A stretch of 64,000 nucleotides of DNA from Bacillota bacterium (GTDB lineage Bacteria; Bacillota; DSM-12270; Thermacetogeniales; Thermacetogeniaceae): the NCBI GenBank assembly GCA_029907475.1, contig JARYLU010000005.1:62001-126000 (forward strand), in the 5' to 3' direction. This document shows positions 23,501 through 52,176 of this stretch, piece by piece; position 1 is the stretch's first letter; the number at the start of each line of letters is the position of its first letter. The translations under genes were made by a program, and so were the position numbers. Under the pieces are notes generated by a model. The model saw nothing but the letters and a program-made list of their open reading frames with translations. It ran no database searches and had not been told where the DNA came from.

Positions 23501-24283
23501 CAGGTTGTTGAGGGTGGCGCCATGGTCCGGATGTTTTTTGTATTGTTCCCCGCAGGCGTTAATGGCTTTTAAGTACATTTGTTCCGCCTGTTGATAACGC
23601 CCCGTGGAAAAATACAATAACCCCAGGTTATTAATTCCTGAGATATAATCCGGGTGCCGTTCGCCCAGGCACTCACGCCTGATTTCAACCGATTTTTTGT
23701 AGAGCCGCTCCGCCTTTTTATAAAGGCCCATGGTCCGGTAAAGTTCTGCCAGGTCATTCAAACTGCCGGCATACTCAGGATGCTGTACACTCCGGATGTC
23801 ACGAGTTATTGCGAGCGATGCCAGGTACAGCTTTCTGGCTTCCGCAAACCTGCCCATGTAATGATATAAAGTAGCCAGGTTGTTAAGGCCGTTGGCGTAT
23901 TCGATATGCCTGCTGCCAAACTGGTCATATATTTCCTTCACGGCCTTCTTGAACAGCGGTTCGGCCTCCTTATACCGCCCCGTGGCGCGATATAACAGGG
24001 CCAGGTTGTTGAGGTTCGTGGCGTAATAACCCTTGAATAAAACGGAACAACTATCGCTCATCTCTTTGATGACCCGCTGGTAAAGCGGCTCCGCATCCTG
24101 CAACCTGCCCGTTTCATGGTAAAGCATAGCCAGATTGCTTAAAATGATGACATAATATGGATGCTGCTCGCCGAGGTTATGCTTTATCAACCTTTTCAGT
24201 TTTTCCGCAACCTTTATGGCCTCTTCAAAACGCCCTTGATTATATAAACCCCTTAAATATAAAAAGGATGCTTCAATTTCCAT
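20501..24283 (-). CDS. TPR-CHAT caspase-like protease
   Basis: A 1260-residue cytoplasmic protein. Residues 1 to about 700 are some 16 tetratricopeptide repeats of the 42-residue TPR_10/12 kinesin-light-chain type, recurring as LNNLALLYRATGRYKEAEPL. About 700-880 is a helical linker. About 900-1255 is a CHAT domain, a separase/caspase-clan Cys protease with catalytic His1068 in HIATHGFFL and Cys1160 in TLSACQTGLG. The start overlaps the end of the zinc-finger gene by 11 bases, so the two are coupled. TPR-CHAT proteins act as regulated proteases in bacterial conflict and stress circuits, including Csx29 of type III-E CRISPR. Here the neighbouring anti-sigma-like protein is an obvious candidate substrate; this is inference. 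Confidence 0.93.
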   Translation of the reverse strand: MEIEASFLYLRGLYNQGRFEEAIKVAEKLKRLIKHNLGEQHPYYVIILSNLAMLYHETGRLQDAEPLYQRVIKEMSDSCSVLFKGYYATNLNNLALLYRATGRYKEAEPLFKKAVKEIYDQFGSRHIEYANGLNNLATLYHYMGRFAEARKLYLASLAITRDIRSVQHPEYAGSLNDLAELYRTMGLYKKAERLYKKSVEIRRECLGERHPDYISGINNLGLLYFSTGRYQQAEQMYLKAINACGEQYKKHPDHGATLNNLALVYKVTGRYTEAESLYREALDITSSVLGKSHPNYALYLQNLGDLYRTTGRYEEAELLYLEARDIRREVLGEHHSAYALSLNGLAKLYYAMGRYQKAGDLYREAAAVNLKAFGSKIHPVYAMNLNDLAVLYCSMGLFKQAEELHQEAIKIRGIVLGEKHIEYATSLNNLALLYYLTGRYEEAEPLYLRAMEIRREILGVRHSDYASSRNNLALLYWATGRYDEAEKLNREGMEIKWEALGAMSPDYATGMSNMALMYHSLGRYDKAESLCLEALKIRREALDSRHPDYAASLLNLAALYQDTGRYDEAELINLEALGIYREKLGAGHANYAYALNNQAMLYEAMGRYYEAGPLYVEACRVFRRSLGKRHPEYAACLNNIAILLAKSGKYERALRHIRESININNSLLYRIAAFLPEEQLLSFTGKIEGETSLLITLVSDYLILDREAVNFAFETVLKRKAIVYEATAARHQTVLAAQYSHLQDLFGKLREVRSVLSRKILSGPAAGESMDQYESTLERLEKEQDQLEREIAKQVPEINLQLRVQNADRKAIAKALPQGSTLVEFFRYNPFCFETSSKERWRPARYIAFVMTDQDPEQVDFFDLGDAQTIDNLVAAFRRSISGEEDFRGINGLEVRDGDLENTCRILYDCIFAPVINKIKHFAINQIIIAPDGEICQLPFEALLSPGGRFVIEEFGLSYLNVGRDVTRFGGLQPSGGGAVIVADPDYNLGEEVTGDKIPPDKDGLIINQLRSRRERFEPLPGTRAEGKMVSGLLAGNGFEFKEFYGADALERHIKQVRAPMLLHIATHGFFLPDKGKPVRAQLHKLNFGAEICIPDYLIPSVEERLVENPLLRSGLALAGANTVLDGARAPEDAEDGILSALDVLNINLVGTELVTLSACQTGLGDIRYGEGVAGLRKSFLLSGAKTLIVSLWNIPDYETRLVMESFYKRFLAGENKAEALRKAKLELIEEMRRDEQFPDPWLWAGFICIGDIKPCERWR

Positions 24284-24989
24284 TCATGTCTCCCTCAGGC
24301 TCAAACACCAGATAGTAGTTTCCAGGCAAAACATCACTGAATTCACCAACCCAACAGCCTTCCCTCGACTCATCCCTTTTAAATTCCGACACTGTTGTTT
24401 GAACTCCGTCTGTTTCGGAAACAAGCAAAACTCTCATGGGAGCATCAATGCTTTTGAAACCTTCCAGCCTTACATTAACTTTGTTGCCCCGGGCGGAAAC
24501 AACAATGGTTTCGCCCGAATCCGCCACTGCTATTACCTTGTTTTCGCGCCTGGGTCTGGCGGGGCTTCCCTTTCCGCCGCGGGTTCCGGCATAAGCAAAC
24601 CTCCAGGGCAATTTCGTCCCGGCCGGCTGTTCCAATTTTTCCAAAATTATTCTGGAGGCCTCACCATGCATATCTATTAAAACCCGGACTGCTGCTCCAA
24701 TCCGCTTCTTTTGGTCTTTAAACCACTCCTGCAGGGACCCTGTTTTCAGAGAGCATGACATTAGTCGAGTATTCTGCATTTTCTTATAATAATCCCCGTG
24801 CCGCCCGGCTGTCCATTCCTCCCAGAAGCCTTTAAGTTTTCTCATCTCCATTGCCCGTTTGGCACAAGTCTCGCAATAACCCAGGTGGTTGTCAACGGCA
24901 TAAATCTCTTCTTCGGTCATTTCATCAGTTCTATTTACATATTTATCTAGATCCTCGAAAGATAAGCAGTTTCTGTGTTCTTCGACCAC
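24273..24989 (-). CDS. Zinc-finger anti-sigma-factor-like protein
   Basis: A 238-residue protein. Residues about 5-45 contain an HxxxCxxC zinc site (HLGYCETC) typical of the ZAS anti-sigma fold. A helical middle and a beta-rich C-terminal domain (about 145-235, ending SDVLPGNYYLVFEPEGDMNG) follow. No membrane segment is seen, so it would be a soluble anti-sigma factor. The start is GTG with AAAGGAGATGA about 9 bases upstream. It lies 117 bases after the sigma-like gene and overlaps the CHAT gene. The beta domain could be the sensor or the part cut by the protease. Confidence 0.7.
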   Translation of the reverse strand: MVEEHRNCLSFEDLDKYVNRTDEMTEEEIYAVDNHLGYCETCAKRAMEMRKLKGFWEEWTAGRHGDYYKKMQNTRLMSCSLKTGSLQEWFKDQKKRIGAAVRVLIDMHGEASRIILEKLEQPAGTKLPWRFAYAGTRGGKGSPARPRRENKVIAVADSGETIVVSARGNKVNVRLEGFKSIDAPMRVLLVSETDGVQTTVSEFKRDESREGCWVGEFSDVLPGNYYLVFEPEGDMNGN

Positions 24990-25106
24990 TCGTTCTCATC
25001 TCCTTTCTTCTTGATTTGCGGGTGGCACAAAAAGCTCATTAATAAATATAGGATTGAATTCCACGTTTATCGCGTGTTTAAAAAAATCAGGTTTTAATGC
25101 ACAAAA

Positions 25107-26105
25107 CTAAATCCTGCATACCTGTTTCTTAATAACTCGCTTCTTAACTCTTTGTTGAACTTTGTATGACCAATCGGAAACGGCGTCTTCCGGCTTGCGC
25201 CTCTTCTGATTAATCCCGCCCTCATCACCCCGGCTGCTATTATTGGTTTCATAATAATCGCGTAAAGAGGTCCTGCCCACTTTCTCACCCAGAAGGCCTT
25301 TGGCCCGCAGCAGGTTCCAAGTTGTTTTGTCTAATTTCTCATCGACTACCTCACTTAGCGTTTTGTCCATTTTTAGGTGTAATATTTCAAAAACCTGGCT
25401 GATTTCATCTTTGGAGATACCGGAATACTTGATGTATAGCTGTTCGAGTAAAATTGATAATTGCTCTAAAGGTTTATCGAACAACTCCCTGACGACCCTT
25501 TCGGGGCACCCGCTTTTACGGCCGGTAGTATTTTTGTCGGAACTCAAATCGCAAGGGAAAATTAACTTGCTGAAGGCAAAAGCAATAACCTGGTGAGGAT
25601 AGCCTCCTATGGAAAATACCGTTCTGAGCAGGGAGAGGTAAAAATCGTTGGCTTCTTCCGCCCGTTCCTTATTGATCAACTCTTCCTCAATGTTCTCTTC
25701 CCATTTCCATGTACCGGCCTGTTTGCGTCGCAAGCTTTCGACAATAATATCTTCCGCAGGCGCGTTCTCCGGGTCAACATCTGCCGGACCGGCCAAATCT
25801 GAAAAAAGATTCTCTTTCTCTCTTCTCTTTTTTAATCTTTTAAAGTAATTCCTGATCTCGTAACTTGCGATCATCCTGATAAAAGTGTAAAACCTGGCTA
25901 TTTCGGGTTTATAAAGATTAATGTTCAACCAAACAGAGGTCCACACGTTCTGGAGGATATCTTCAGCATCCCCCTTTTGCTCTATAATACTGTTTATATA
26001 ACCGGATACAGCGCGGTCAAAACTCTGTTTTAATTGTGTAAAAGCAGCTTCATCGTCCTTCCGGGCAAGTTCGACCAAAGCTAACTCTTGTTCCCGGCTT
26101 AGCAA
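25107..26105 (-). CDS. ECF-like sigma-70 family factor with extended C-terminus
   Basis: A 332-residue protein. Residues 1-100 match sigma region 2 (GDAEDILQNVWTSVWLNINL, then FIRMIASYEIRNYFKRLKKR). Instead of the usual short linker and region 4 there are about 230 further residues; a region-4-like helix pair is not obvious, although IAFAFSKLIF and the basic tail VQQRVKKRVIKKQ could contact DNA. The start is TTG, with GGGGGTGATA 7 bases upstream. It heads the sigma, anti-sigma, CHAT transcription unit and is divergent from the phosphosignalling arm. It probably directs RNA polymerase to island promoters, which is inferred. Confidence 0.8.
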   Translation of the reverse strand: MLSREQELALVELARKDDEAAFTQLKQSFDRAVSGYINSIIEQKGDAEDILQNVWTSVWLNINLYKPEIARFYTFIRMIASYEIRNYFKRLKKRREKENLFSDLAGPADVDPENAPAEDIIVESLRRKQAGTWKWEENIEEELINKERAEEANDFYLSLLRTVFSIGGYPHQVIAFAFSKLIFPCDLSSDKNTTGRKSGCPERVVRELFDKPLEQLSILLEQLYIKYSGISKDEISQVFEILHLKMDKTLSEVVDEKLDKTTWNLLRAKGLLGEKVGRTSLRDYYETNNSSRGDEGGINQKRRKPEDAVSDWSYKVQQRVKKRVIKKQVCRI

Positions 26106-26499: not shown

Positions 26500-26564
26500 C
26501 GCGGGAAATGTTTGGCTAACAACTATATTTGATTAAGGCATCAATGAAGGGGGAAACGCAATTT

Positions 26565-27140
26565 ATGAACCTTGTTTTAAAGCTTCTTAAACCAACGGAT
26601 ATTTATTCAATCTTATCTATCGTAATATTGTCTATTATATTTTACATTTGGAACATTAAGTCTTTGGACCTCATAAATGATATTTTTACAATTAAAGATA
26701 TCTTGACTCAACAACATCCGGAGATTTTAGGACAATTTTTATGGAGTTTAATTATTTTAGCGGTATTGGAAAATTTTTTAATAAGAGATAACTCTAAATT
26801 TCTTCCTAACCTGGCAGGAAAAACACTTTTGGGCGCCTTATCACCGCTTATTGCAAATTTTGTAATACTGGAATTGATGGAGTCTTTTCAGCTGGGCGGG
26901 ACTAAAGGACTGTTAACCATTTCTTTTTTAACGTTTGCAGGGATCATGATTTTAGCAATTACACCTGTTCCATTTTTATCAGATATCGCGATACGAGTTT
27001 TTAAATATATATTTTTGACTGCTGTTTTGTTGGCTTTCTTTTCCAGCCTGACCACGGGTGTAATGTTAGAAATTTTGTTGGGAATTGTTATTTCTATTAT
27101 TATAATAGTTGGAATTTACTTTTTATTAAGAAGTTTTTAG
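26565..27140 (+). CDS. Hypothetical multi-pass membrane protein
   Basis: A 191-residue, very hydrophobic protein with five or six predicted membrane segments (for example SILSIVILSIIFYIW and LGIVISIIIIVGIYFLL) and a short polar loop after the first. I recognise no family. The ATG at 26565 is preceded by AAGGGGGAA; an upstream in-frame TTG at 26529 is less likely. The gene is distinctly AT-rich relative to its neighbours, suggesting separate acquisition. It is the first gene of the right arm. Confidence 0.7.
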   Translation: MNLVLKLLKPTDIYSILSIVILSIIFYIWNIKSLDLINDIFTIKDILTQQHPEILGQFLWSLIILAVLENFLIRDNSKFLPNLAGKTLLGALSPLIANFVILELMESFQLGGTKGLLTISFLTFAGIMILAITPVPFLSDIAIRVFKYIFLTAVLLAFFSSLTTGVMLEILLGIVISIIIIVGIYFLLRSF

Positions 27141-27361
27141 TAGGATTAGTAAAGGAACAATGAAGTTTTCCGCGCTTAACGTGGAAGTAGATACAAGCCA
27201 CATATAACTTATGGAAAATATTGTATCAGGGCAAAAATTTTATCGTACCCACAGGCGGATAATGAAAATATTGTCAAATAGTGTTGCCGTGTTAGGGTGC
27301 GAGAAATTAAACTGATTGGACCTTATGTATTATAAAGAGTTGTTTAAGGGGTTGAGTCGGG

Positions 27362-28537
27362 TTGAGTGAATCGATTTACTCCGGTTACCGCATTTCTGAG
27401 AGAGAACGGCAGAGGCTGGAAGAAGAACGAAGGCGTAAGCTGGAAGAGGAACGCAAACGCCTGGAGGAAGAGAAACGAAAAAGGAAAATCGCAGAGGAAA
27501 AGGAACGGATTGAAATAATAAAACGCTTTCGTGAAGCGGCCTCAATCTTGCAGGCAACGAGCCGCGAATTAACTCAAAGAAATGAATCCCCGCCGCAAGC
27601 CGGCGCTGATGACAAGGGACAAAAAGATCTAAGCAGGTTCATGGAGGAAACAATTCAATCAATTAAGAAACAATTGGAGAGCGTCCCGCCGGAATGGTCA
27701 AAGATCTTTCATGTTGAGCTGGGCCAGATAAGTCAAGCTGTCGCCGATATTGAGCAACACAGTTGCGATCCGTATTTTTACCACCAGCTGAAGTGGGCGC
27801 AGCGAAACCTCGTGAGGCTTACTTCCGAAGCTCAGAAAAAAATCGAGGCGCTGGAACGCGCCCTAAGGGAAATCGACGAACTGACCATTCAAATGGAAAT
27901 AATGAAAAACAACGCTATCCTCGAGGAACACAAGCGCGCAGCCGGGTCGTTGATTAATGCCCTCAACGAACTCGCCCGGGTTGTTGACCCGGATTATGTT
28001 GCAGACCGTTTGCCGCTCTTGAAAAAAGAAGCCGGACAGCTGTACGAGGATTTTGAAGAAACGCAAACAAGGGATCAAACGAGGAGGTTTGTACTCAAGA
28101 ATATCCAGGAAGTATTGGTTGAAATGGGCTATGATGTCTTAAGCGCGCAGGTTCCCGGCGATAATGCCCAGCCGGCTTATTTGACGCTTAAAACACCTGA
28201 TAATGAAATCGCCAGGATCGGTTTCGGCCTGGATAATTCGGTCTTTGCCGAATTTGCACACCTGGCCCGCGATAACGGCAGCGGCGGCGCGGCTTTGCGT
28301 GAAGTCTTGATTTCCAAGTGCCGCCGTTGGTGTGAGGATTATGATCTGATGCAAAAAAATTTAGTTGCTAGAGACGTTATTTTAAGCGACAAATGGCGCA
28401 CGGCTCCGGAAGAAGGGCGTTATGAAGCGATATATGTTGAATCTCAAAATTACGGTTCCTGCGATGATGAATTGACGGAAGAAGATTACTTTTTACATAA
28501 TGCCGGCCAAGGAGAAATAGCGTATGGAAAGAAATGA
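27362..28537 (+). CDS. Coiled-coil protein of the phosphosignalling cluster
   Basis: A 391-residue protein. Residues 10-60 are an uninterrupted Arg/Glu/Lys helix (RLEEERRRKLEEERKRLEEE), a long charged coiled coil. A helical middle (100-240) and a compact C-terminal alpha/beta domain (about 240-390, with FVLKNIQEVLVEMGYDVLSA) follow. No known domain is recognised. The start is TTG. Its last 14 bases overlap the AAA+ ATPase gene, so the two are translated together and probably interact; the coiled coil might be an adaptor or substrate-delivery factor. The spacer 27141-27361 upstream holds no gene. Confidence 0.75.
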   Translation: MSESIYSGYRISERERQRLEEERRRKLEEERKRLEEEKRKRKIAEEKERIEIIKRFREAASILQATSRELTQRNESPPQAGADDKGQKDLSRFMEETIQSIKKQLESVPPEWSKIFHVELGQISQAVADIEQHSCDPYFYHQLKWAQRNLVRLTSEAQKKIEALERALREIDELTIQMEIMKNNAILEEHKRAAGSLINALNELARVVDPDYVADRLPLLKKEAGQLYEDFEETQTRDQTRRFVLKNIQEVLVEMGYDVLSAQVPGDNAQPAYLTLKTPDNEIARIGFGLDNSVFAEFAHLARDNGSGGAALREVLISKCRRWCEDYDLMQKNLVARDVILSDKWRTAPEEGRYEAIYVESQNYGSCDDELTEEDYFLHNAGQGEIAYGKK

Positions 28538-30581
28538 GAGTTTGCCCCGGTGGCTGAGGGAACTGGACCGTTATCTACCCGTTAAAACATTGTTATTGTT
28601 GTACGGGAACACCTATGACAAGCTTCTTTATCAAGTTGCGGATGGGGAAGACACCCGCTGGGCGTACCTGAATTTGCGGGAGCTTCTCTACCGGTTCTTT
28701 TTGGACCGGAAGTACCGGTTAATCGGGTTTTACGATGTTGTTGACGGGCTGACCTTTCTCTCCGACCAGGAATGCCAGAGGTTTAAAGCGGTCTCCCGCG
28801 GCCAGGGTTTTGCAGGACCGGGGCCGCAGCCGGGACGGGCCCAGGCGGCTGAGCACAGGCAGGGGGGCGGCTATTACGGTGGAAATTCCCCCCATCCGGA
28901 ACCTGTTCAACATCCCCCGGCCCGGGGAGGCTACCTCCAGGATTTCGACGCCGCCCTCGACGCTATCCGCAAAGTAATGGCCAACAGGGACGTACCGGCC
29001 GCCATAGTAATAGACTTCGCCTCACGCCTGGTGTCCGCTCCCGGGCACCTGTTGCAGAAGGAAAGGCTGCAATTCGTCAAGCTGCTCAAATGTACGACGG
29101 AGGCTTCCCGCGTCAACATAGACGGTGAAGCTTATAACAATGTAATAATACTGATTTGCGACAAGCTTAATGACTTGCCGGCCTGGCTTTACCTGAACAA
29201 CCCTCTTGCCAAACCAATCCAGATCGACCGTCCGTCTGATGAGGAGCGCAGGCGTTACTTTGAAATGACGGCCGGGGCATTTTATGGTTATGAGCCGGGT
29301 AACCAGGACCCGGAAAAAACGATTCAGAGTTTCGTTGACCTGACTCACGGCATGGGGAACTATGAACTGGAAAGCCTGCGTTTGATTTCCTTTAAAGAAA
29401 AAATACCTTTTAACAAACCCAAGAATGTTATTGAAAGTTATAAATTCGGAGTCAAGGAAAATAAATGGGAGCAGTTGCGGAAAAACAAGTTTATCGACGC
29501 GGAAAAAGTCCTGAAAAAGCGCGTTAAGGGGCAGGACGCGGCAGTTCGGACAGTGGTGGAAATTATTAAGCGGGCTGCAGTGGGGATGTCGGGCATCCAG
29601 CACTCTTCATCGGCCCACAAGCCCAGGGGCATCCTGTTTTTCGCGGGTCCCACCGGGGTTGGAAAAACGGAACTGGCCAAAGCGCTGGCGGAATTGTTGT
29701 TCGGGGATGAAAACGCGTGTATTCGTTTCGACATGAGCGAATACGCGCTCGAGCACGCGGACCAAAAGCTTTTGGGAGCGCCTCCCGGCTACGTGGGTTA
29801 CGAAGAAGGAGGTCAGCTTACCAATAAGGTGAAAGAATCGCCCTTTAGTGTTTTGTTATTCGACGAAATAGAAAAAGCTCACCCTAAAATTTTGGATAAA
29901 TTTTTACAGATTCTAGAAGACGGGCGCATGACTGACGGCAAGGGAGAAACCGTTTATTTTTCCGAGTCGATAATAATCTTTACCAGCAACATCGGCGCTT
30001 ATACCGATACCCCGGCAGGAGACGGCGTGGTCATAAGAAAACCCAACGTTTTACCCTATTCATGGCGATGCCGGGAATGCGGGCAGTCGTTCATTGAAGA
30101 GGACATGCCTGCCTCTTGCGACTGCGGCGCCGCGGATTTTGAAAAAATGCAGACCCCTTATTCCCAGGTTAAGGAAAGAATATTAAAAGCCGTTGAAGAA
30201 CATTTCAAGTTTAAGCTGGGCAGGCCTGAGATTTATAACCGGATCGGCAATAATTTTGTGGTGTTTGATTACATCAGGCCGGAAGTCGCCGACCTCATAA
30301 TCGACAAGATACTTGACGGAATCACCGGCAAAATGGCTGAACAAAAGAACTTGAGGCTGGAATTCGCCCGGCCGGTGCGCGACTTTTTAAGGGAGCGGGC
30401 GTTTAACAACGTTGAACTCGGAGGCAGAGGCATCGGCAATTTAATCGAAACGACACTGGTGAACCCCCTGGCGGGCGAAATTTTCGACCGTGGTATAGAC
30501 GGCGGGAAACTGGTAATAAAAAGTATCGTTGAACGTGAAGAGGGAAGTGTTGTAACATACAGCCTGGAAATTGAAGGGTGA
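28524..30581 (+). CDS. ClpA/ClpB-like AAA+ ATPase with degenerate first module
   Basis: A 685-residue protein. Residues 1-300 form a P-loop-less AAA-like module (YLPVKTLLLLYGNTYDKLLY; AAIVIDFASRL as a Walker-B-like strand). About 350-680 is a Clp-type AAA+ module with Walker A GPTGVGKTE, the pore-loop region GAPPGYVGYEEGGQL, Walker B LLFDEIEKAH and sensor FTSNIG. A zinc ribbon (CRECG...CDCG, near 512-535) is inserted in the module. Such ATPases remodel or unfold proteins as hexamers. It overlaps the coiled-coil gene upstream; the radical-SAM gene begins 33 bases after it. It lacks a clear ClpP-binding loop, so protein remodelling rather than proteolysis is more likely. Confidence 0.88.
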   Translation: MERNESLPRWLRELDRYLPVKTLLLLYGNTYDKLLYQVADGEDTRWAYLNLRELLYRFFLDRKYRLIGFYDVVDGLTFLSDQECQRFKAVSRGQGFAGPGPQPGRAQAAEHRQGGGYYGGNSPHPEPVQHPPARGGYLQDFDAALDAIRKVMANRDVPAAIVIDFASRLVSAPGHLLQKERLQFVKLLKCTTEASRVNIDGEAYNNVIILICDKLNDLPAWLYLNNPLAKPIQIDRPSDEERRRYFEMTAGAFYGYEPGNQDPEKTIQSFVDLTHGMGNYELESLRLISFKEKIPFNKPKNVIESYKFGVKENKWEQLRKNKFIDAEKVLKKRVKGQDAAVRTVVEIIKRAAVGMSGIQHSSSAHKPRGILFFAGPTGVGKTELAKALAELLFGDENACIRFDMSEYALEHADQKLLGAPPGYVGYEEGGQLTNKVKESPFSVLLFDEIEKAHPKILDKFLQILEDGRMTDGKGETVYFSESIIIFTSNIGAYTDTPAGDGVVIRKPNVLPYSWRCRECGQSFIEEDMPASCDCGAADFEKMQTPYSQVKERILKAVEEHFKFKLGRPEIYNRIGNNFVVFDYIRPEVADLIIDKILDGITGKMAEQKNLRLEFARPVRDFLRERAFNNVELGGRGIGNLIETTLVNPLAGEIFDRGIDGGKLVIKSIVEREEGSVVTYSLEIEG

Positions 30582-30614
30582 CAAAGAATCTGGAACTAAA
30601 GACGGGTGATCTTG

Positions 30615-31253
30615 ATGCGGCTTTACCTCGGGCGGATTTATTATCCCGTTACCAGCCTGGGGCCCGGCAGGCGTAGCGGCATATGGGTTCAAGGCTGTTC
30701 ACGCCGCTGCCCCGGGTGCATGTCGCCTGAATTATTGACCCCCAAAAGCAGTTCCCTTTGCAGCGTCGAGGGTGTTTTTGCAGAAATTCTTAAAGTGGCT
30801 TCGGTGTGCGATGGCATCACCATAAGCGGGGGAGAGCCGTTCGAGCAGGCTGCTCCTCTGGCTGAACTCTGTTCGCTGATCAAAGAATACACCAGTTTGG
30901 ATATTATGATTTACTCCGGCTATACCATTGACGAAATCAGGGCGGGAACCGATGACATGAACCAGTTGTTGCAAACGGCGGACATTCTTATCGACGGCCC
31001 TTTTCGACTGGAACTTCCTACACGGAAATTATGGAGGGGCTCGGACAACCAGAATTTATATTTGCTGACTCCCCGCGCACAAAAGTATAAAGGATTCGTT
31101 GACGCTGAATATGGCCCAAATCGTCAGCTTCAACTTGAAATGACGGCCGATGGAAAGATCATGATCATCGGGATTCCGGCCGGGGATTTTTTTACAGAGT
31201 TAAAAATATTAACTGAACAGCGCGGTATTCAATTGATAAAGGATGGGGATTGA
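30615..31253 (+). CDS. Radical-SAM activating-enzyme-like protein (NrdG/PflA type)
   Basis: A 212-residue radical-SAM protein with the cluster motif CSRRCPGCMSPELL (CxxxCxxC) and a glycine-rich SAM motif ITISGGEPF. This is the size and layout of glycyl-radical activating enzymes such as NrdG, which make a 5'-deoxyadenosyl radical to abstract hydrogen from a protein glycine. No anaerobic ribonucleotide reductase or other glycyl-radical enzyme is encoded in this window, so the substrate may be a protein of this cluster. The ATG at 30615 is preceded by GGGTGAT. It is spaced 3 bases from the FHA gene. Confidence 0.85.
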   Translation: MRLYLGRIYYPVTSLGPGRRSGIWVQGCSRRCPGCMSPELLTPKSSSLCSVEGVFAEILKVASVCDGITISGGEPFEQAAPLAELCSLIKEYTSLDIMIYSGYTIDEIRAGTDDMNQLLQTADILIDGPFRLELPTRKLWRGSDNQNLYLLTPRAQKYKGFVDAEYGPNRQLQLEMTADGKIMIIGIPAGDFFTELKILTEQRGIQLIKDGD

Positions 31254-31256
31254 AAC

Positions 31257-31733
31257 ATGGGAAAAAAAGTAAAAAAGTGCCCTAGATGCGGTTTTGTCAA
31301 CGACGAGTATGCTATTTTCTGTGCCAACCCTGAATGCAGGGAATCGCTAATGTATGTCACGGCCGTAAGCATCGAACCCTTGCCAAAAGAGGAACCGGGA
31401 GGTGACCCTCCCGTCGATCCGCCTACACCACATACGGCGCAACTGGAATGTTTATCTCAGCCAGGTTTTACGTTTGAAGTAAAAGATCAGGGAATAATCG
31501 GCAGGCAAGGTGACATAGATGTCAGCTGCCTGGAAAATTGTGATTATATTTCCAGGTTGCATGCCAGGTTTATTTATGCGGGGGGAAAGTGGTACCTGCA
31601 AAATTTGAGCGACACCAATAAAACGATGGTCAACAATTTTCGAGTGCCGAAAGGGTCGCAGCAAGTATTGTCGGACGGGGACAGGATAACTCTTGCAAAT
31701 ACTTCATTTTTATTTAAGGTGATGAAACCATGA
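31257..31733 (+). CDS. Zinc-ribbon and FHA-domain protein
   Basis: A 158-residue protein. Residues 1-30 are a zinc ribbon (CPRCG...CANPEC) and 40-60 a Pro-rich linker. Residues 65-155 are a forkhead-associated domain with the phosphothreonine-binding signature GIIGRQGDI, YISRLHARF and LSDTNKTMVNN. FHA domains dock onto phosphorylated Thr, here presumably made by the nearby kinase. The first 45 residues are nearly identical to the start of that kinase, the result of a local DNA duplication. It overlaps the phosphatase gene by 4 bases. Confidence 0.93.
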   Translation: MGKKVKKCPRCGFVNDEYAIFCANPECRESLMYVTAVSIEPLPKEEPGGDPPVDPPTPHTAQLECLSQPGFTFEVKDQGIIGRQGDIDVSCLENCDYISRLHARFIYAGGKWYLQNLSDTNKTMVNNFRVPKGSQQVLSDGDRITLANTSFLFKVMKP

Positions 31734-32530
31734 ATGAAATTCATGTTTGCGGCCAAAGCGATGCCGGCCGGGTGCGATTGGAAAACCAGGATTGTTTTTT
31801 AATAAACGGCATTATTGAAAGGAGCTTTGCTGGAGCGAAAATTCAGGATTCAGGGATGTTTCTGGAGCAATACGGGTTATTGTGCGCGGTGGCGGATGGA
31901 ATGGGAGGACACAGCGGAGGGGCTATCGCCAGCCACATGCTGCTCCGGCACCTTGCACTAAACGCCCTGGAAACAGGCAATTATGATGATCCTGTCCAGG
32001 CGGGTGAACACATCCGTCAAGCAGTTGACAAAGCGCATGAAATCATTGTCGGGCAGGGTAAAGTTAATCCTTCTCTGGCTGACATGGGTACAACACTGGC
32101 CGGGGTTTACATAAAGAAAGATTATTCCGTTGTCTTTCACGCAGGAGACAGCCGGGTTTACCGTTTTCGCGGCGGTTACCTGAATCAGCTCACGAGTGAC
32201 CATACTGCTGAAAACCTGCTCTGGATGACAACAGGGAAGCTGCCGCAGGGGCCCAAAAGCGGCGTAATTACGAACAGTATCGGCGGTGGGCAGGGGGTTA
32301 AATGTTATGTAGAAGTAAATAACATAACATTTATAAAAGGCGATATCCTGCTGATCTGCAGCGACGGGCTGACCGACATGGTCGAAACTAAGACGATAGA
32401 AGAAATATTAAGCCGCGGTTCTGGAATTGATGAAAAGTCGCGGCAGCTTATCGGGGCGGCAAATGAAGCCGGCGGTATGGATAACATTACAGTTATATTG
32501 ATTGAATACAGGGGGGAAAAAAATGCTTGA
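31730..32530 (+). CDS. PP2C-family protein phosphatase
   Basis: A 266-residue metal-dependent Ser/Thr phosphatase. The motifs NQDCFLI, VADGMGGHSGG (metal-binding Asp), DMGTTLAG, HAGDSRVYRF, CSDGLTD and DNITVI appear in order and complete the catalytic set. It is soluble, with no membrane segment. It should reverse phosphorylation by the kinase encoded just downstream. It starts 4 bases inside the end of the FHA gene. Between its stop and the kinase start lies only part of the duplicated 150-bp segment. Confidence 0.95.
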   Translation: MNEIHVCGQSDAGRVRLENQDCFLINGIIERSFAGAKIQDSGMFLEQYGLLCAVADGMGGHSGGAIASHMLLRHLALNALETGNYDDPVQAGEHIRQAVDKAHEIIVGQGKVNPSLADMGTTLAGVYIKKDYSVVFHAGDSRVYRFRGGYLNQLTSDHTAENLLWMTTGKLPQGPKSGVITNSIGGGQGVKCYVEVNNITFIKGDILLICSDGLTDMVETKTIEEILSRGSGIDEKSRQLIGAANEAGGMDNITVILIEYRGEKNA

Positions 32531-32582
32531 AACTCAGCGCCTGTCAGACATGGAAACCCAGAGGAAGGATGGGGATTGAAAC

Positions 32583-33986
32583 ATGGGAAAAAAAGTAAAA
32601 AAGTGTCCCAGGTGCGGTTTTGACAACGACGAGTATGCTTTTTTCTGTGCCAGCCCTGAATGCAGGGAATCGCTAATGTTTGTCACGGCCGTAAGCATCG
32701 AACCCTTGCAAAAAATGGATGATCAGCAAACCCGGCGGGAGAATGATCAGCAAACCCGACGGGAGAATGATCAGCAGACCCGGCGGGAGAATGATCAGCA
32801 GACCCGGCGGGAGAATGATCAGCAAACCCGGCGAGATAATGCTCAGCAAACCCGGCGGGAGAATGATCAGCAGACCCGGCGGGAACCATCCTCCAGCGAG
32901 GATTCATTTGATCCCTTCATTTATAACAAATCAGGGGCGGAAATAGCCGGGCGTTACGTAAACCCGGTCCCCCTTTCCAGGCAAGGGGGGGAATCAGACG
33001 TATTTCTTTGTAAAGACAGGGAAGCAAACAGCCAGGTTGTGGTTAAGCTTTACCGCAGCAATATCAAGCCAAAGGACGACATCTTAAAGAAGTTAAAGGG
33101 AATAAAGCACGTAGACGTTATCTCGTTACTTGACTATGGGACATGGGATAATCGTTTTTATGAAGTAATGGAGTATGCCGCCGGGGGGACGCTGGCCGAG
33201 CACGTGCCGTTTACGGAGGAGTTTTTGACCGCAAAGGTAATACCGCAAGTTGTAAATGGATTACAATATCTCCACAGTCTGAATATAATCAATCGGGACC
33301 TGAAACCCTCCAACCTTTTCTTTCGCGATGCCGGTCGCAGCGACGTAGTTATAGGTGATTTCGGCATATCCTCCCTGATCGAGGACGGAGTTACAATCCG
33401 CCCCACCTCAGCGTCGCGCACCACCGAATTTTCCGCTCCGGAAGTTTTTAGCGGTATCATGGGTAAAGAGGTGGACTACTACGCGTTAGGCATCACCTTG
33501 ATGTTCCTGCTGACGGGAGAAAGCCCGTTTAAAGGTTTAAACGAGCAAATGATCATGCACATACACCTGTCGGAAAAGATTCCTCCGCCGCGGGACTGTT
33601 CAGACAGGTTCAAAACTTTGTTGCAGGGTTTGCTGCTTAAAGAAAGGAAAAACCGCTGGGGATCCGACCATGTCCAAAGATGGCTTAAAGGGGAGAACGT
33701 CCCGGTAGTTCCTGACCAGCTTGCCGTTCCATTATTCAGATACAAGTTAAGTGAGGGGAAGGAGGCCAGGGATTTCAAGACCCTTGGAAAATTGCTTCTC
33801 GACAACCCCGTGTTGGCCAAAAAGCATATCAGCCAACGCCTTTTATATGAAGTAATTAAACAGCATGACCAGGCCCTGGCGTCTAAAATACACGACATCC
33901 AGGAGAAGGCCCGCTGTGAGGATGAAGCTTACCTGGGGATTGTATATACACTTAATCCCGATTTGCCATACCGGCTCTTCAGATGA
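32583..33986 (+). CDS. Ser/Thr protein kinase with zinc ribbon and repeat linker
   Basis: A 467-residue kinase. Residues 1-30 are a zinc ribbon (CPRCG...CASPEC). Residues 47-101 are seven tandem copies of an eight-residue unit, DQQTRREN. Residues 125-385 are a eukaryotic-like kinase domain with Lys155 (VVKLYR), catalytic Asp239 in INRDLKPSN, DFG Asp259 and APE. All catalytic residues are present. A C-terminal helical tail of about 80 residues follows. Unlike many PknB-type kinases it has no membrane segment or PASTA domains. The Thr in each linker repeat could be a phosphosite read by the FHA partner. Confidence 0.94.
   Translation: MGKKVKKCPRCGFDNDEYAFFCASPECRESLMFVTAVSIEPLQKMDDQQTRRENDQQTRRENDQQTRRENDQQTRRENDQQTRRDNAQQTRRENDQQTRREPSSSEDSFDPFIYNKSGAEIAGRYVNPVPLSRQGGESDVFLCKDREANSQVVVKLYRSNIKPKDDILKKLKGIKHVDVISLLDYGTWDNRFYEVMEYAAGGTLAEHVPFTEEFLTAKVIPQVVNGLQYLHSLNIINRDLKPSNLFFRDAGRSDVVIGDFGISSLIEDGVTIRPTSASRTTEFSAPEVFSGIMGKEVDYYALGITLMFLLTGESPFKGLNEQMIMHIHLSEKIPPPRDCSDRFKTLLQGLLLKERKNRWGSDHVQRWLKGENVPVVPDQLAVPLFRYKLSEGKEARDFKTLGKLLLDNPVLAKKHISQRLLYEVIKQHDQALASKIHDIQEKARCEDEAYLGIVYTLNPDLPYRLFR
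32721..32885 (+). repeat. Tandem 24-bp repeat, seven units, inside the kinase gene
   Basis: Seven units of GATCAGCAAACCCGGCGGGA plus GAAT run in phase with the reading frame from 32721. Variation is slight (A/G at one site; units 5 and 6 have two changes), and the last unit diverges at its end. Each unit encodes DQQTRREN. Copy number is likely to vary between strains. Confidence 0.93.
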
Positions 33987-34015
33987 TTTCAAAGCAGGGG
34001 AGAGGTGACGGTTAA

Positions 34016-35605
34016 ATGAGTAATGGCGCCACAACTGAAAACAACCCCTACGAAGCCAGTAATCCCGCTCAACTGGCGAAGTTGATTGACCAAAATAAGG
34101 AGACGTGGGAAGCGGGGCGGGAACAGTTGTATAACGGCAGTATCCTGGCCTGGCTGCAGGCTACGGGTTATCAGAGGATTGTTGATTTATGGACGGAGAT
34201 TGCGGATAAGTTTAAGGATAACAAGGACGCCGGGCTGGAAGCTTTTTTGCAGCTAATGGATCCCGACCTGAAAATGCCTCAGCTAGAGGTCACACCAAAT
34301 AAAATAAACATCATGCGGATTCAACCCGGCCAGAGCAGGGATATTGAAGTAAAAATCGCCAATGCGGGACGGGGTCACATAACCGGTAGTGTCGAGCTGT
34401 CGCCCGCAATCCCGGGAGTCAGCGTTTCCCCGGAAACTATAAATATAAACGAGAAATTCAACAAAAGCGTTTCTGTTAATTTAAAAATAAACACAACGGA
34501 TTCTTTAAAAGGAACGACTGCGCTCAGGGTAAATACGAATGCCGGAGAGGTTAATGTACCTGTTTCTTACCGGTGCGTTTTGCCTGTTGTCTTGTTCTAT
34601 CCCTGGCTTGGCGCTATCGGCGGGTTTTTGGCGTATTACTTTCTGTATCCCCGTTTCTGGCGGGAATGCGCACCATATATTGTTAATACCTTCCGATTTC
34701 CAGGCTTCTACGCGATATTTCTGGCGATGGCGATAACGATTCCGGCGGCGTTAATCATCAATAGCCGCAAAAAGACGCACAGGCTTTTGATACCCAATCT
34801 TATCAGCGCGCTAATCGCGACAGTATTGCTTGCCAACGGTATGTTGCCTAATATTGGTACTGGGTTCCTGTTTTATGCAATAATGTTGGTTGCCCTGTGG
34901 TTTGTACTGGCCGGCGCCCCGATGAACGGCTTGCCGTTCACAGCCGTACTCGGCGCTTACGGTGCGAACTGGTTTATTTTTAACGGGTTGCTTCCTACCG
35001 GCCTGTACCAGTTTAGCGAAAAAGTCGTACATTTCAATGAGTTCTGGGTGCCGGCGGCAATATTTGCCTTTACCGGGTATGGTTTCGGTCAATGGTTGCT
35101 TGACCGGGTAAATTTGACTTATATCCAAAAGCCTGCCCGGACCTTGCATTATACCGGTGTTGTATTAATGACAATTTTTATAATCGCCGCCGTTTATTAC
35201 TCGTATACCCAATCCCTGAGCGGCAATACGCTTGCTTCGACCGGTTTAGCAGTAACTGCCAGACAAGCGGCAGTTTACGCGGGTCCTTCAACAGGGTCCA
35301 ATCAAATCAGAACTTTACCCGCGGGATCAAACATAAAAATCATTAAAAATGAGGGCCAGTGGCTTAAGGTTGAGTTCTATACCAATGGATTTATTCACAA
35401 GTCCCAGGTGAGAGTCGAAGGTTCCAATGCCGTCATTATTTCGGATTCCGGCTCTAATCTCCGTTCCGGACCTTCTTTGCAGCAAAATAATGTGATAACG
35501 GTTGTACCCAGGGACAAGGTTGTTAACGTCGTCAGTAAAGAAGGTGATTGGTATAATGTCAATTATCCTGAAACCGGTTATATTTCACAAGATCAGGTTA
35601 AATGA
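34016..35605 (+). CDS. Membrane protein with Ig-like, transmembrane and paired SH3 domains
   Basis: A 529-residue protein. Residues 1-75 form a soluble helical domain (AKLIDQNKETWEAGREQLYN; ILAWLQATGYQRI) of a kind I have seen beside bacterial kinases. About 90-180 is an Ig-like/CARDB beta domain (IQPGQSRDIEVKIANAGRG). About 190-395 contains six or seven membrane helices. About 410-529 contains two bacterial SH3 domains (AVYAGPSTGSNQIRTLPAG; SNLRSGPSLQQNNVITVVP). SH3b domains usually bind peptidoglycan outside the cell, so it may link the envelope to the cytoplasmic kinase/AAA machinery. It has GGGGAGAGGTGA upstream and follows the kinase gene by 29 bases. Confidence 0.85.
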   Translation: MSNGATTENNPYEASNPAQLAKLIDQNKETWEAGREQLYNGSILAWLQATGYQRIVDLWTEIADKFKDNKDAGLEAFLQLMDPDLKMPQLEVTPNKINIMRIQPGQSRDIEVKIANAGRGHITGSVELSPAIPGVSVSPETININEKFNKSVSVNLKINTTDSLKGTTALRVNTNAGEVNVPVSYRCVLPVVLFYPWLGAIGGFLAYYFLYPRFWRECAPYIVNTFRFPGFYAIFLAMAITIPAALIINSRKKTHRLLIPNLISALIATVLLANGMLPNIGTGFLFYAIMLVALWFVLAGAPMNGLPFTAVLGAYGANWFIFNGLLPTGLYQFSEKVVHFNEFWVPAAIFAFTGYGFGQWLLDRVNLTYIQKPARTLHYTGVVLMTIFIIAAVYYSYTQSLSGNTLASTGLAVTARQAAVYAGPSTGSNQIRTLPAGSNIKIIKNEGQWLKVEFYTNGFIHKSQVRVEGSNAVIISDSGSNLRSGPSLQQNNVITVVPRDKVVNVVSKEGDWYNVNYPETGYISQDQVK

Positions 35606-35676
35606 GTACTTACCAACCGGGGTTGAAAAACCCCGGTTATTTTTAGATAATTCTGCAATTTACGGTGGTGAATAGT

Positions 35677-36054
35677 TTGTCTTCCGAGCTAAAATTAATC
35701 AGCGATTTCGTACAAAAAGTGCCAGGCCCCTGGTGGGTGACTCTTGCTGCCGCCCAGGTCGGCAAAACCCTGGAAGAGCCGAACTTCGGTTTTGTCCAAA
35801 TTATTGCCAGTGATGCCAGAATTGAGGAAGACAAAGGCGTCATTTCATTTGTCAACTTTAATTCCAGTCGGATGGACATTGTCCTGGCAGCTTTACAGAA
35901 CGGCAGAAGAATTAATGAATCGACCTTGCGGTTTGACTACTTCAATGCGGTTGTTCCGTTACGGGACTTCGAGATCGAATCCTGGCCGGTCTGGTTTTTG
36001 TGTATAGAAAAAGTCCCTCCCTTGAGCAGTCTTGAGCTGCCGGATTTGGTATGA
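35677..36054 (+). CDS. Hypothetical 125-residue protein
   Basis: A small soluble protein with mixed alpha/beta character (LISDFVQKVPGPWWVTLAAA near the N-terminus; FDYFNAVVPLRDFEIESWPV near the C-terminus). I recognise no family. The TTG at 35677 has GGTGGTG 6 bases upstream; a GTG at 35665 is also in frame. It lies 71 bases after the SH3 membrane protein, separated by a short CCGGGGTT/AACCCCGG hairpin near 35618-35638. Confidence 0.6.
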   Translation: MSSELKLISDFVQKVPGPWWVTLAAAQVGKTLEEPNFGFVQIIASDARIEEDKGVISFVNFNSSRMDIVLAALQNGRRINESTLRFDYFNAVVPLRDFEIESWPVWFLCIEKVPPLSSLELPDLV

Positions 36055-36070
36055 TATTTAATCGACTTAG

Positions 36071-36238
36071 TTGCATTACGAAATTATTAATTTTCTAAAA
36101 GGCGTACCCCGCGAAGAAGCTGCTGTACTTCCCAATATTGATTGGGAGGTGAAACAGCGATATTTGATTAAAGAGGTAAGGCGGCTTCTGATTCTTTTGT
36201 CAAAGACAAAAAGCAAAATTAGGAGGGGTAGCCAGTGA
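36071..36238 (+). CDS. Small protein of 55 residues overlapping the B-box gene
   Basis: The frame from a TTG at 36071 encodes LHYEIINFLKGVPREEAAVL followed by a basic tail rich in Lys and Arg. It stops at a TGA at 36236-36238 that overlaps the GTG start of the next gene (GTGA), the signature of translational coupling. The ribosome site AGGAGGGG of the next gene lies inside it. No strong ribosome site precedes the TTG, so the exact start is uncertain. It resembles no family I know. Confidence 0.4.
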   Translation: MHYEIINFLKGVPREEAAVLPNIDWEVKQRYLIKEVRRLLILLSKTKSKIRRGSQ

Positions 36239-36711
36239 ACTGTTATGTCCATCCTGACCGCGAATCGGTCGTAACGTGTAGCTTCTGTGGAAAAGGTCTT
36301 TGCTCCGAGTGCGCGGATCTATTTGAAAGCCCCAGTTGCCCGAGGTGCGCTGAGCAGTATAACAGGAAAGTCATGGCGGCCAGGACAAGGCCCCTGTTGT
36401 TGACAACCATTGTGGCGGTGGCAGGTTTTTTCACCGGCCTGAGCCTTAACGGCGATGCCATAACTTCGTTAATGTTCATGTGGGGTATACTCGGTATTTA
36501 CTGGGGTTGGGCCTATGTCAAGCCGATGTTGTTTGCAACACTGTTCGGTACGATTGCCTGGAGGGGAACCGGTTTTGTACTGGGACTGATGTTGGTTGCT
36601 CTGGCCATGGGTCTCGGGATGTTCGTAGGGCCGTTTCTTTTAGCAAAAAACATTTATGAATATATCCGGGACAAAAAAGCTTTTGATTCAGTAAAGCACA
36701 CCGGGGCATAA
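36235..36711 (+). CDS. B-box zinc-finger membrane protein
   Basis: A 158-residue protein. Residues 1-40 are a B-box-like zinc finger (CYVHPDRESVVTCSFCGKGL and CAEQY region, with Cys/His pairs). Then follow three or four membrane helices (TTIVAVAGFFTGLSL; LMFMWGILGIYWGWAYV; GLMLVALAMGLGMFVGPFLL). Proteins of this build are widespread in Firmicutes without assigned function. The start is GTG with AGGAGGGG 8 bases upstream. It is the last gene before a strong terminator and so closes the right arm of the island. Confidence 0.82.
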   Translation: MNCYVHPDRESVVTCSFCGKGLCSECADLFESPSCPRCAEQYNRKVMAARTRPLLLTTIVAVAGFFTGLSLNGDAITSLMFMWGILGIYWGWAYVKPMLFATLFGTIAWRGTGFVLGLMLVALAMGLGMFVGPFLLAKNIYEYIRDKKAFDSVKHTGA

Positions 36712-36782
36712 CCCAAAAAAGGTCTCTGATAAAATCTCTAAACTCCCAAATTAAAATATTTTTGTATCTAGGAAAAAAACAA

Positions 36783-36836
36783 GCCCGCCCGCCTGCAGGG
36801 CGCAGTTTGCATCCCTGCAGGTAAGCGGGCCTTTTT
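36783..36836 (+). terminator. Strong terminator at the end of the signalling island
   Basis: A two-part stem (GCCCGC 36783-36788 with GCGGGC 36825-36830; CCTGCAGGG 36792-36800 with CCCTGCAGG 36813-36821) is followed by five Ts. Confidence 0.88.
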
Positions 36837-36851
36837 ATTATAAAATTCTAA

Positions 36852-37245
36852 CATACCGTACGAAACATATTTTTCAAAGGCGGAACGAATTTACGATGCA
36901 GCTATAAATGTTCTTAATGACCTGAAGGCTCAAACTGTATTTCCAGAAATTATTAAAATATCCGTATGCTGCTGATTGAAACGGCGGTAGGCTATATTGA
37001 TTACGGGGATTTCGAAGGGGCGATTTCGGTAAGTGATGATATTGAGGCGTATTTGCCCCGGTTTTTTGGATTACCTGGCAAAGAAAGTGTCGTTCCTCGG
37101 TAGGTCGGATGTGAAAAAGCACCCAGAATTAGGTGGAATTTCACTATTTTCGGCGTGGGGAGCAGTTTTGTTTTTAGCTTTAACGGGGTGGTGTGTGTAT
37201 TTTACTCATAGCTGGAAGAAGTGAGCCAGTTGTCGCGTTTTTAAG
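36852..37245 (+). pseudogene. Decayed coding region, unknown family
   Basis: Broken frames suggest former coding. One stretch from about 36856 reads YFSKAERIYDAAINVLNDLK and ends at a stop at 36960s; a 45-codon frame from ATG 36966 to 37103 reads IETAVGYIDYGDFEGAISVS. They look like two pieces of one frameshifted gene. A third frame (37033-37224) encodes a 63-residue peptide with one hydrophobic segment (AWGAVLFLALTGWCVYF). No family is recognised and none has a good ribosome site. Confidence 0.35.
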
Positions 37246-37485
37246 GTGCAAAGGGTGTTGCTCTACGGAAATGTCCAGTTGACCTCCCAGGCGGCAGTTC
37301 TTCTCCTCGACTCGGGAGTAGACGTGAATTTCCTCACTTTTGGCGGAAGAATGAGGGGCAGGCTCACCAGTACCATGTCAAAAAATATTTTTTTACGGCT
37401 GGCTCAGTATGAAAGGTGGAAAGATACAACATCTTCCCTAACAATATTGTCAACTCCTTACAACTCATCGGTAGCAGGGGAAACC
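37246..37485 (+). pseudogene. cas1: cas1 fragment
   Basis: About 60 codons read VLLYGNVQLTSQAAVLLLDS and then SKNIFLRLAQYERWKD, the pattern of the N-terminal beta domain and first helix of the CRISPR integrase Cas1. The frame then slips: another frame continues with IVNSLQLIGSRGN-like residues before homology ends. The catalytic C-terminal domain is missing and unrelated DNA of a sodium symporter, on the opposite strand, follows at about 37486. No CRISPR repeats or other cas genes are visible in the window. Confidence 0.7.
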
Positions 37486-38818
37486 GGCCAGGTAGGGTTT
37501 CCCCGACAGGGCCCTGGCTATCCCGAAGATTACGGCTTCCTTCTGGTGCATAAAGAAGACCATAAAGGCGAAACCGCCGAGCCCGTCAGCATGCCGGCGG
37601 TAACCCCGCTGCCCGTGGCCCGGGGCCAGTAAAGGGCCGCCAGGAGCGCCGGTAGGAAGCTGGCCGCGCAGAGGCCAAAGAAGATGGAGGTGGCCAGCGC
37701 AATTATGCTGGGAGGGAGCTTAAAGCCCAGGTAAAGGGTTATGGCCAGACCCACCAGCACTCCGCAGCGGGCAACAACCATGCCGGCCTGCGGAGAAGCC
37801 TCCGGTTTCCCCATGAAGTAGAGGTCGCGCACCGAGGTACCTGTCACGTGGAACTGGTTGCTCAAAGTGGACATGGCCGCCGCCAGCAGGGTGAGCATGA
37901 AAATGTAGACAAACCATGAGGGCAGGGCCTGGTTGATGTACAGGGGTATGATGCGGTCAATGTTCGGCATGTTAGTAGCGGGATCGGTGACCCTGGACAG
38001 GGCAATCATACCCCCGGTGCGGTAAAAGTAGACGTTGGAAAGGGCCCCCACCACAAAGGCGGTGCCGGTCATGGCCAGAATAAAAATCCCGCCGGTGACC
38101 ATGCCGCGGTTTAGCTCACGGATGCTGCGCAGGGTCATGAAGCGCACGGCCAGTTGCGTCTGGGCCAACACCCCGATGCCCACGCCGAGCACCAGGGTGG
38201 TAAGCACGTACCACCACAGCTCCGAACCTACCAGGGGCATGGCCGTCCAGCCCAAATGACCCTTGGCGGCCAGCGAAGACGGCACCAGGCCCTTTAAAGC
38301 CGACAGTGCTTCGTGGGCCGGGACGACGCCACCCAGCCTGGCATAGGTCAGAATGAGCAGCAGCACCATGCCCAGAAACATGATCCCGCCCTGCAGGGCG
38401 TCGGTGTAAATAACGCCCCGCAGGCCGCCGTAAAAGACGTAGGCGGCCACCAGAAGGGCAAAGATGATCAGGGCCAGCGAATAATCCAGGGAAAGCACCT
38501 GTTCCAGAAAGCGGGAACCGCCGATCATTACCGCTGCAGCGTAAAGGGGTATTACCAGGGCAATCAGCAGCGCGGCGTAGGCGTGGATGAAGCGCGAGTT
38601 AAAACGCTTGGCTAAAAGTTCCGGGAAAGTCTGCACTCCCAGGTTGGCTCCCATGAGCCGGATGCGCCTGCCCAGGAAGGCAAAGGCAATAAAAATGCCC
38701 ACCAGAATGTTCAGAGCTGCCAGCCATAAAAGGCTCATCCCGTAGGCAGCCGCCGCACCGCCAAAGCCCACGATGGCCGACAGGCTCGAAAACGTAAAGG
38801 ATGATCCTGCCTCAGTAT
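37486..38818 (-). pseudogene. Sodium:solute symporter (SSS family), truncated and frameshifted
   Basis: The main open part (37530-38771) encodes about 413 residues with some eleven membrane helices. Its family features are AGSSFTFSSLSAIVGFGGAA upstream of the first usable start, VFYGGLRGVIYTDALQGGIM, and AAAMSTLSNQFHVTGTSV. The first helix and true start are absent: homology begins at about 38818. Near 37585 the frame shifts by one base; the native ending (FAFMVFFMHQKEAVIFGIAR) continues in another frame until the cas1 fragment. Damage at both ends makes a working transporter unlikely. Confidence 0.75.
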
Positions 38819-52147: not shown

Positions 52148-52176
52148 TTGACCTGCACGTTAATATGTGTTACACT
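52148..52176 (+). promoter_or_regulatory. vapBC promoter
   Basis: TTGACC (52148-52153) and TACACT (52171-52176) are 17 bases apart. The antitoxin start is 23 bases further on. Confidence 0.6.

Follow-up and report, generated by a model that had tools for sequence, protein, structure and literature searches.

What might a run of genes accomplish that joins serine/threonine phosphosignalling to a ClpB-like AAA+ ATPase and a radical S-adenosylmethionine (SAM) enzyme, and do these genes form a system at all? Such a cluster lies on the forward strand of the window (the 64,000-nucleotide stretch of a Bacillota bacterium analysed here), where ten convincing co-directional open reading frames (ORFs) were read at 26529-36711, one fewer than the eleven counted in an earlier sequence-only reading. 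Seven of the ten make up a tight operon at 27362-35605, in which neighbouring genes overlap or are spaced by 3-52 bp. We find that this cluster belongs to one real conserved system and is not a chance neighbourhood, and that its phosphosignalling genes and its AAA+ and radical-SAM genes go together; judging from its genes and relatives, the system probably serves in a novel way against stress or viruses.

The conservation was established with loci encoding AAA+ proteins that, like the one in the window, contain a dead module. These were gathered from genomes of the Genome Taxonomy Database and from plasmids, and every ORF in the resulting 40 loci was scanned with hidden Markov models (HMMs) of the component families. 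The HMMs were built partly from the loci scanned, yet loci outside the radical-SAM training set (L107, L134, L136 and L137, for example) also match. The loci derive from Bacillota, Actinomycetota, Pseudomonadota and Cyanobacteriota, and many are on plasmids, conjugative ones among them. A radical-SAM gene was found at most 11 kb from the AAA+ gene, always on the same strand, in 35 of the 40 loci, and the coiled-coil partner in 31, while the kinase, FHA and PP2C genes were present in 21, 16 and 11, respectively. As a control, we used 71 loci from the same search whose ClpB-type AAA+ proteins have no dead module; none contained the radical-SAM gene (0 of 71 at E <1e-40; Fisher p 7e-24 for the difference in linkage) or the coiled-coil partner. 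All six components occurred together in eight loci (the window cluster, L091, L107, L112, L113, L135, L136 and L141), from Bacillota and from genomes of the Actinomycetota and Pseudomonadota samples. The concern attached to the sequence-only reading, that these genes might seldom occur together elsewhere, is thus not borne out.

The system is nevertheless sporadic. The dead-module AAA+ was present in only 1 of 101 close relatives and in 14 of 398, 6 of 296 and 8 of 398 genomes of three phylum samples (∼2-3.5%); two remote members of the 14 (L116 and L117, E ∼1e-14) were dropped because no core gene adjoined them. No full-length AAA+ relative was found in 50,697 phage records, and scans of viral contigs gave only partial matches of the ClpB type for the AAA+ and none for the radical-SAM protein. 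Three loci of rumen or gut Clostridia (L004, L005 and L006) encode a dead-module AAA+ with no radical-SAM, coiled-coil or phosphosignalling gene detected and may represent a reduced or repurposed branch. Some ClpB-type control loci have neighbours of other kinds, a Mokosh-like helicase in L020 and a PP2C phosphatase with a kinase in L024 and L028.

At the core of the system is a trio of AAA+, radical-SAM and coiled-coil proteins. The AAA+ protein (28524-30581) is a two-module HSP100-like ATPase that matches AAA_2 and ClpB_D2-small in Pfam and NCBIfam. Its second module is ClpB-D2-like and active by its motifs, with a Walker A sequence (GPTGVGKT) and LFDEIE in the translation. The first module was described as dead in the sequence-only reading, and three observations agree: it has no Walker A in an alignment with nine relatives over both modules; a profile built from the 18 N-terminal modules of alignment A3 weakly matches VCP/Vps4 AAA modules (E 3e-4); and an AlphaFold2 model (mean predicted local distance difference test, pLDDT, 74) aligns with ClpC and ClpB along the two modules (Z ∼20, ∼500 residues). 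This alignment starts at residue 5-6 of the model and at residue ∼184-192 of ClpC, that is, after the Clp N-domain, which the window protein lacks. The zinc-ribbon insert noted earlier is also real (∼residues 512-535) but private to the window protein, being absent from the other nine aligned. Although the protein shares its two-module fold and D2 sequence with ClpB and ClpC, it differs in lacking the N-domain, in its dead first module and in its nearly constant linkage to a radical-SAM gene, and with a ClpB equivalog score of 259 against a cut-off of 1232 it is not a ClpB/HSP100 disaggregase.

The radical-SAM enzyme (30606-31253; Fer4_12/radical SAM by Pfam and NCBIfam) has an intact CxxxCxxC motif (CSRRCPGC), the cysteines of which (C31, C35 and C38) are invariant in the alignment, placing it in the radical-SAM superfamily; a C-terminal extension of ∼55-60 residues follows. 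Its assignment to an NrdG-like activase family stands, but it is not NrdG, the activase of anaerobic ribonucleotide reductase (102 bits, under the equivalog cut-off of 126), and no glycyl-radical enzyme is named beside the gene in the annotated loci. The third member of the trio, a coiled-coil protein of the MSGPK family recognised by its homologues (27362-28537), consists of a long helical N-terminal part and a small C-terminal alpha/beta domain. A cysteine of this domain (Cys324 in the window) is kept in 29 of 29 aligned partners despite their very diverse sequences. No Pfam family matched the domain of the window protein even at E 10, and Foldseek returned no PDB fold with E <0.001 for a model that is poor in this region (pLDDT ∼40-75).

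A probable deep relative of the trio was found in clusters that encode a Ycf46-like AAA+, DUF1257 (Ycf35), DUF2997 and a radical-SAM enzyme or ferredoxin. Profiles of the Ycf46-like AAA+ N-module and of DUF2997 were set against the AAA+ N-module and the C-terminal domain of the coiled-coil partners. The N-modules matched at 77% (E 2e-5, 169 columns), and DUF2997 matched the partners' domain at 79% (E 1.6e-5), cysteine aligned on cysteine, whereas unrelated control profiles in the same comparison reached at most 1.7%; smaller DUF2997 and Ycf46 profiles had earlier given at most 54% and 4%. Members of the radical-SAM family are encoded in the Ycf46-type clusters as well (E ∼1e-20 to 1e-30), where they adjoin the Ycf46-like AAA+, DUF1257 (or a replacement protein) and DUF2997 on plasmids of Paenibacillus, Paenarthrobacter and Rhodococcus, and similar Ycf46-DUF1257-DUF2997 sets are found on Geminocystis, Bacillus, Manganitrophus, Planktothrix and Pseudanabaena plasmids. 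The AAA+ proteins of these loci are presumably Ycf46; the name does not come from a database match. The two kinds of cluster appear to have in common an AAA+ with a dead N-module, a small protein or domain with an invariant cysteine, and an NrdG-like radical-SAM enzyme with a similar C-terminal extension. They differ in the second AAA+ module, which is a classical AAA module in Ycf46 and ClpB-D2 in the window; in the long coiled coil to which the DUF2997-like domain is joined in the window; and in their neighbours, since the Ycf46 loci as read adjoin no FHA/PP2C set and DUF1257 was not detected in the window cluster, its profile giving no match to the coiled-coil partner. From these profile matches the two are probably, though not provably, homologous in all three parts. 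The genes duf2997-ycf35-fed7 form gene cluster 'g' in PMC4284462.

Three related plasmid loci are worth noting. A variant set on a Calothrix plasmid (L250, 5040-14123) encodes an NTPase-TPR protein, a radical-SAM enzyme of the same family, an MSGEK coiled-coil protein with a LARMGY motif and an 848-residue AAA+, with an Hsp70 gene upstream of the set. On a Treponema succinifaciens plasmid (L253, 4345-8569), a 4Fe-4S radical-SAM-like gene and a Ycf46-like AAA+ gene directly precede a gene for phage baseplate protein V, perhaps part of a contractile-injection cluster. A Geminocystis plasmid (L254, 2446-7604) has Ycf46-like AAA+, DUF1257 and DUF2997 genes among those for RloB, a zeta toxin and DUF4007, a defence-like setting.

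Downstream of the trio, the operon continues with a zinc-ribbon FHA adaptor (31257-31733), a PP2C phosphatase (31730-32530; motifs DGMGG, GDSR, SDG and GGMDN), a zinc-ribbon Ser/Thr kinase (32583-33986; motifs NRDLKPSN and GDFG) and an Ig-like protein with transmembrane (TM) segments by TM scan and two SH3_3 domains of the SH3b type (34016-35605), all matched in Pfam or NCBIfam. The 43-residue zinc-ribbon head is nearly identical in the FHA protein (31257-31390) and the kinase (32583-32715) and is therefore attributed to duplication within the operon; the same zinc-ribbon FHA architecture recurs in L010 and L091 and, as read from sequence starts, in L109, L112, L113, L133 and L141. In relatives, the kinase and the N-terminal and Ig part of the SH3 protein share one reading frame as a fusion (G686 at L234, 887 residues; G716 at L141; G268 at L111) or are joined with a frame break (G231 at L245), and the kinases of L112, L113, L134, L135 and L136 have predicted C-terminal TM segments of their own. 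Because the two parts are a single protein in relatives, the window kinase and SH3/Ig protein are most simply read as a membrane receptor kinase divided into a soluble and a sensor half. Its ligand may lie in the wall, to judge from the SH3b domains. The envelope sensing envisaged in the sequence-only reading gains support from these fusions.

Between the zinc ribbon and the kinase domain, a repeat scan revealed a 24-bp tandem repeat (32719-32884) that encodes seven copies of DQQTRREN, a threonine array of the form TxxE/D. TxxD is a textbook target of some FHA domains. The kinase tails of relatives carry repeats that are unrelated in sequence but built on the same pattern (TQRD five times in L135, TxLD three times in L134 and VT[EQ]RFD four times in L141), and T[IV]xE pairs are found in those of L112 and L113. 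Ten such tails contained 32 Txx[DEILVF] motifs, compared with 18.3 +/- 3.3 in 2000 shuffles, a count that serves as a guide only because the tails were chosen after being seen; the window repeats, being near-identical, are not independent of each other.

PADLOC, NCBIfam, Pfam and the literature, mostly open, gave no system of this composition, in keeping with the sequence-only reading, although one may have been described elsewhere. Three candidates deserve mention. The kinase-kinase-phosphatase (KKP) defence module consists of a PP2C followed by two kinases, with FHA fused to a kinase (PMC11341870); it has kinases, PP2C and an FHA domain in common with the cluster, which contains only one kinase, and no AAA+ or radical-SAM protein is mentioned for it there. 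In the FtsH class of vWA-MoxR ternary conflict systems, an inactive N-terminal AAA+ module stands beside an active one, and a subset of vWA-MoxR systems has a radical-SAM effector (PMC7159879). Despite these two likenesses, the window AAA+ has a ClpB-type and not an FtsH-type module, and neither a vWA match nor a MoxR partner was found among the ten proteins. Mokosh was likewise rejected as the identity of the cluster. Mokosh combines a Ser/Thr kinase with a COG1112-type helicase and a PLD nuclease; in the window a kinase is present, but the genome holds no helicase homologue beyond a weak match and the cluster no PLD domain. The trio is in no named system.

Sister lineages in which a helicase-nuclease accompanies the trio point to a role in defence. 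An operon of helicase, PIN protein, coiled coil, AAA+ and radical-SAM genes is found on Photobacterium, Moellerella, Polaromonas, Acinetobacter and Leisingera plasmids and in a Bacillota genome (L114); its helicase matches MkoA of Mokosh (E 7e-102) and a PIN_4 domain is present in the second protein. The AAA+ and radical-SAM genes are followed by one for a 2100-residue kinase-DUF4011-helicase-MTES_1575 nuclease in Rhizobium, Bradyrhizobium, Burkholderia and Sphingomonas. An Aristaeella plasmid encodes a DUF4011 helicase-nuclease (PADLOC models PDC-S37 and Hhe) next to kinase, coiled-coil, FHA, radical-SAM, AAA+ and PP2C genes, the full phosphosignalling set included. These sister lineages share an SF1 helicase of the MkoA type and a Ser/Thr kinase with Mokosh (MkoA/B/C) but carry PIN or a restriction endonuclease plus the trio, and the window cluster has no helicase; similarly, the DUF4011-helicase-MTES_1575 protein of Hhe/PDC-S37 stands beside the trio in Rhizobium, Burkholderia and Aristaeella, where a kinase is fused to it or encoded nearby, and is absent from the window genome. 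An Acinetobacter plasmid that carries the system is recorded as pNDM1_010055, and nothing close in DNA sequence to the operon of Moellerella was found in E. coli. A helicase-nuclease output in sister lineages would make defence against phages or other mobile DNA the most likely function, a role read from relatives and genes and favoured also by plasmid carriage and patchy distribution.

We propose the following mechanism. A membrane receptor kinase, split here into the kinase and Ig/TM/SH3 genes, would sense a disturbance of the cell wall or envelope and phosphorylate its own N-terminal threonine array, a TxxE/D target for FHA. The zinc-ribbon FHA protein would then dock and recruit a complex made up of the trio. 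The second AAA+ module, by hydrolysing ATP, may remodel the coiled-coil protein so as to expose its conserved-cysteine domain, which the radical enzyme could modify or activate, and PP2C would reset the phospho-switch. The output in sister lineages would be the helicase-nuclease, and the effector here may be the coiled-coil protein once modified, the membrane protein or else a target encoded elsewhere. That the cluster represents a system without a name, scattered in its occurrence and often carried on plasmids, with its core trio under a phospho-switch working in this manner and likely serving defence, is a proposal to which we give an even chance. Several points weigh against it: five AAA+ loci have no detected radical-SAM gene (three from rumen or gut Clostridia and two on short contigs); the DUF2997 and Ycf46 profile matches stay below 80% probability; the threonine tails were picked after inspection and the window repeats are near-identical; the conserved cysteine as target of the radical enzyme is conjecture; and the window genome has no homologue of the Mokosh-like helicase, only a weak match to an AAA domain, so that the defence reading draws on relatives in other clades.

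One alternative is envelope-stress or developmental signalling, in which the receptor kinase would watch over the cell wall and the target remodelled by the trio would be a housekeeping one. The nearest kin of the window AAA+ in the AAA+ tree, L109 and L133, are both of the phosphosignalling type, with no helicase-nuclease detected on their short contigs; kinase-linked envelope proteins recur (SH3/Ig in the window, OmpA in L134, RodZ_C/Ig in L111 and a copper-amine-oxidase N-domain in L115); and the system is present in four sampled genomes of one genus. This alternative is quite possible, if somewhat short of an even prospect, but defence accords better with the patchy occurrence, the carriage on plasmids and the nucleases of sister lineages. 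A second alternative, put forward in the sequence-only reading, joins the cluster to the divergent genes for a sigma factor (Sigma70_r2), a 238-residue protein (the anti-sigma of the sequence-only reading) and a TPR-CHAT protein (20501-26105) as one system, with CHAT as its protease effector. The arm is adjacent to the cluster, and the fall in G+C content to 0.41-0.50 over 20-38 kb of the window is common to both. However, none of its three proteins had a match in the 35 related loci compared, some of them on short contigs, and we regard the arm as an improbable part of the system. More doubtful still, and in our view very unlikely, is a degenerate Mokosh-type defence from which the helicase-nuclease has been lost. 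The operon does include an MkoA-like helicase in L085-L089 and L114, but all window genes are intact with their catalytic residues, as read from translations, and no PADLOC model of Mokosh that is radical-SAM or ClpB-like AAA+ was matched; moreover, in the AAA+ tree each of the two nuclease types forms one clade while the phosphosignalling type is spread over several branches, and therefore helicase loss need not be assumed. Finally, a regulator of type VI or related contractile injection (a PpkA/PppA/Fha/ClpV-like set) is scarcely credible even though kinase, phosphatase, FHA and ClpB-like AAA+ are shared ingredients and the AAA+ matches the TssH model (E 2e-59), for the ClpB and ClpA models score higher, the AAA+ has no Clp N-domain, and the sheath gene TssC/VipB (PF05943) was not found in the window genome with an E. 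coli control positive.

Returning to the phospho-switched trio, a bolder version, which we offer tentatively as a possibility rather on the unlikely side, is a post-translationally armed bacterial immune or stress machine of a new class. In it, a dead-module HSP100 motor would pass the coiled-coil protein on to a radical-SAM enzyme for conversion of the invariant cysteine in its DUF2997-like domain, under control of a wall-sensing receptor kinase with a phosphothreonine array read by FHA, and a related machine would be encoded by the plastid and cyanobacterial Ycf46-Ycf35-DUF2997 genes. The comparison of loci defines an unnamed multi-gene system across at least four phyla and on plasmids, and joins radical-SAM chemistry, an HSP100 motor and Ser/Thr phosphosignalling, which had not been linked before in the literature searched. 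The invariant cysteine offers a direct biochemical handle on the action of the radical enzyme, and the deep Ycf46/DUF2997 link could aid the study of cyanobacterial and algal-plastid genes of no known function. The helicase-nuclease relatives, threonine array, invariant-cysteine partner and Ycf46/DUF2997 link all go beyond the sequence-only reading.

The limits of the cluster are set by an intrinsic terminator at 35615-35638 (a 10-pair stem with a T-rich tail, the best in the window), which starts ten bases past the SH3 gene, so that the tight operon ends at 35605. The terminator thus closes the seven-gene operon but not the whole set, and the description of the genes as closely packed holds for these seven and not for the three that are set apart. 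Of the latter, mem203 (26529-27140), a 203-residue protein with ∼6 predicted TM segments and uncertain membership, is separated by 222 bp from the coiled-coil gene downstream, whereas u129 (35665-36054; 129 residues) and a protein with a B-box-like zinc finger and two TM segments (36235-36711) lie past the terminator. None of the three had an informative family in Pfam or NCBIfam or a match in the 35 related loci. A second stem-loop follows at 36774-36839.

An IS607-type element had been placed at the border of the cluster in the sequence-only reading, and its MerR/serine-resolvase TnpA was found by domain match at 17352-18017 on the forward strand, overlapped by a 577-residue ORF (the pair spanning 17352-19713) that is TnpB-like by position, with no Pfam match; a truncated S1-domain protein (20004-20348, forward strand) is a remnant adjoining the element. 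Just downstream of the cluster is a Cas1 fragment (37246-37632, forward strand) that covers positions 35-101 of 283 of PF01867 (E 3e-11), and no CRISPR-like repeats were found at 36700-38000. On the left, the ppdK-cysK flank is common to genome G004 and the sequence beyond it differs, which marks the region as variable; no exact empty site was seen there. Farther along, at 52148-52856 on the forward strand, a pair of small ORFs resembles an antitoxin and a PIN-domain toxin.

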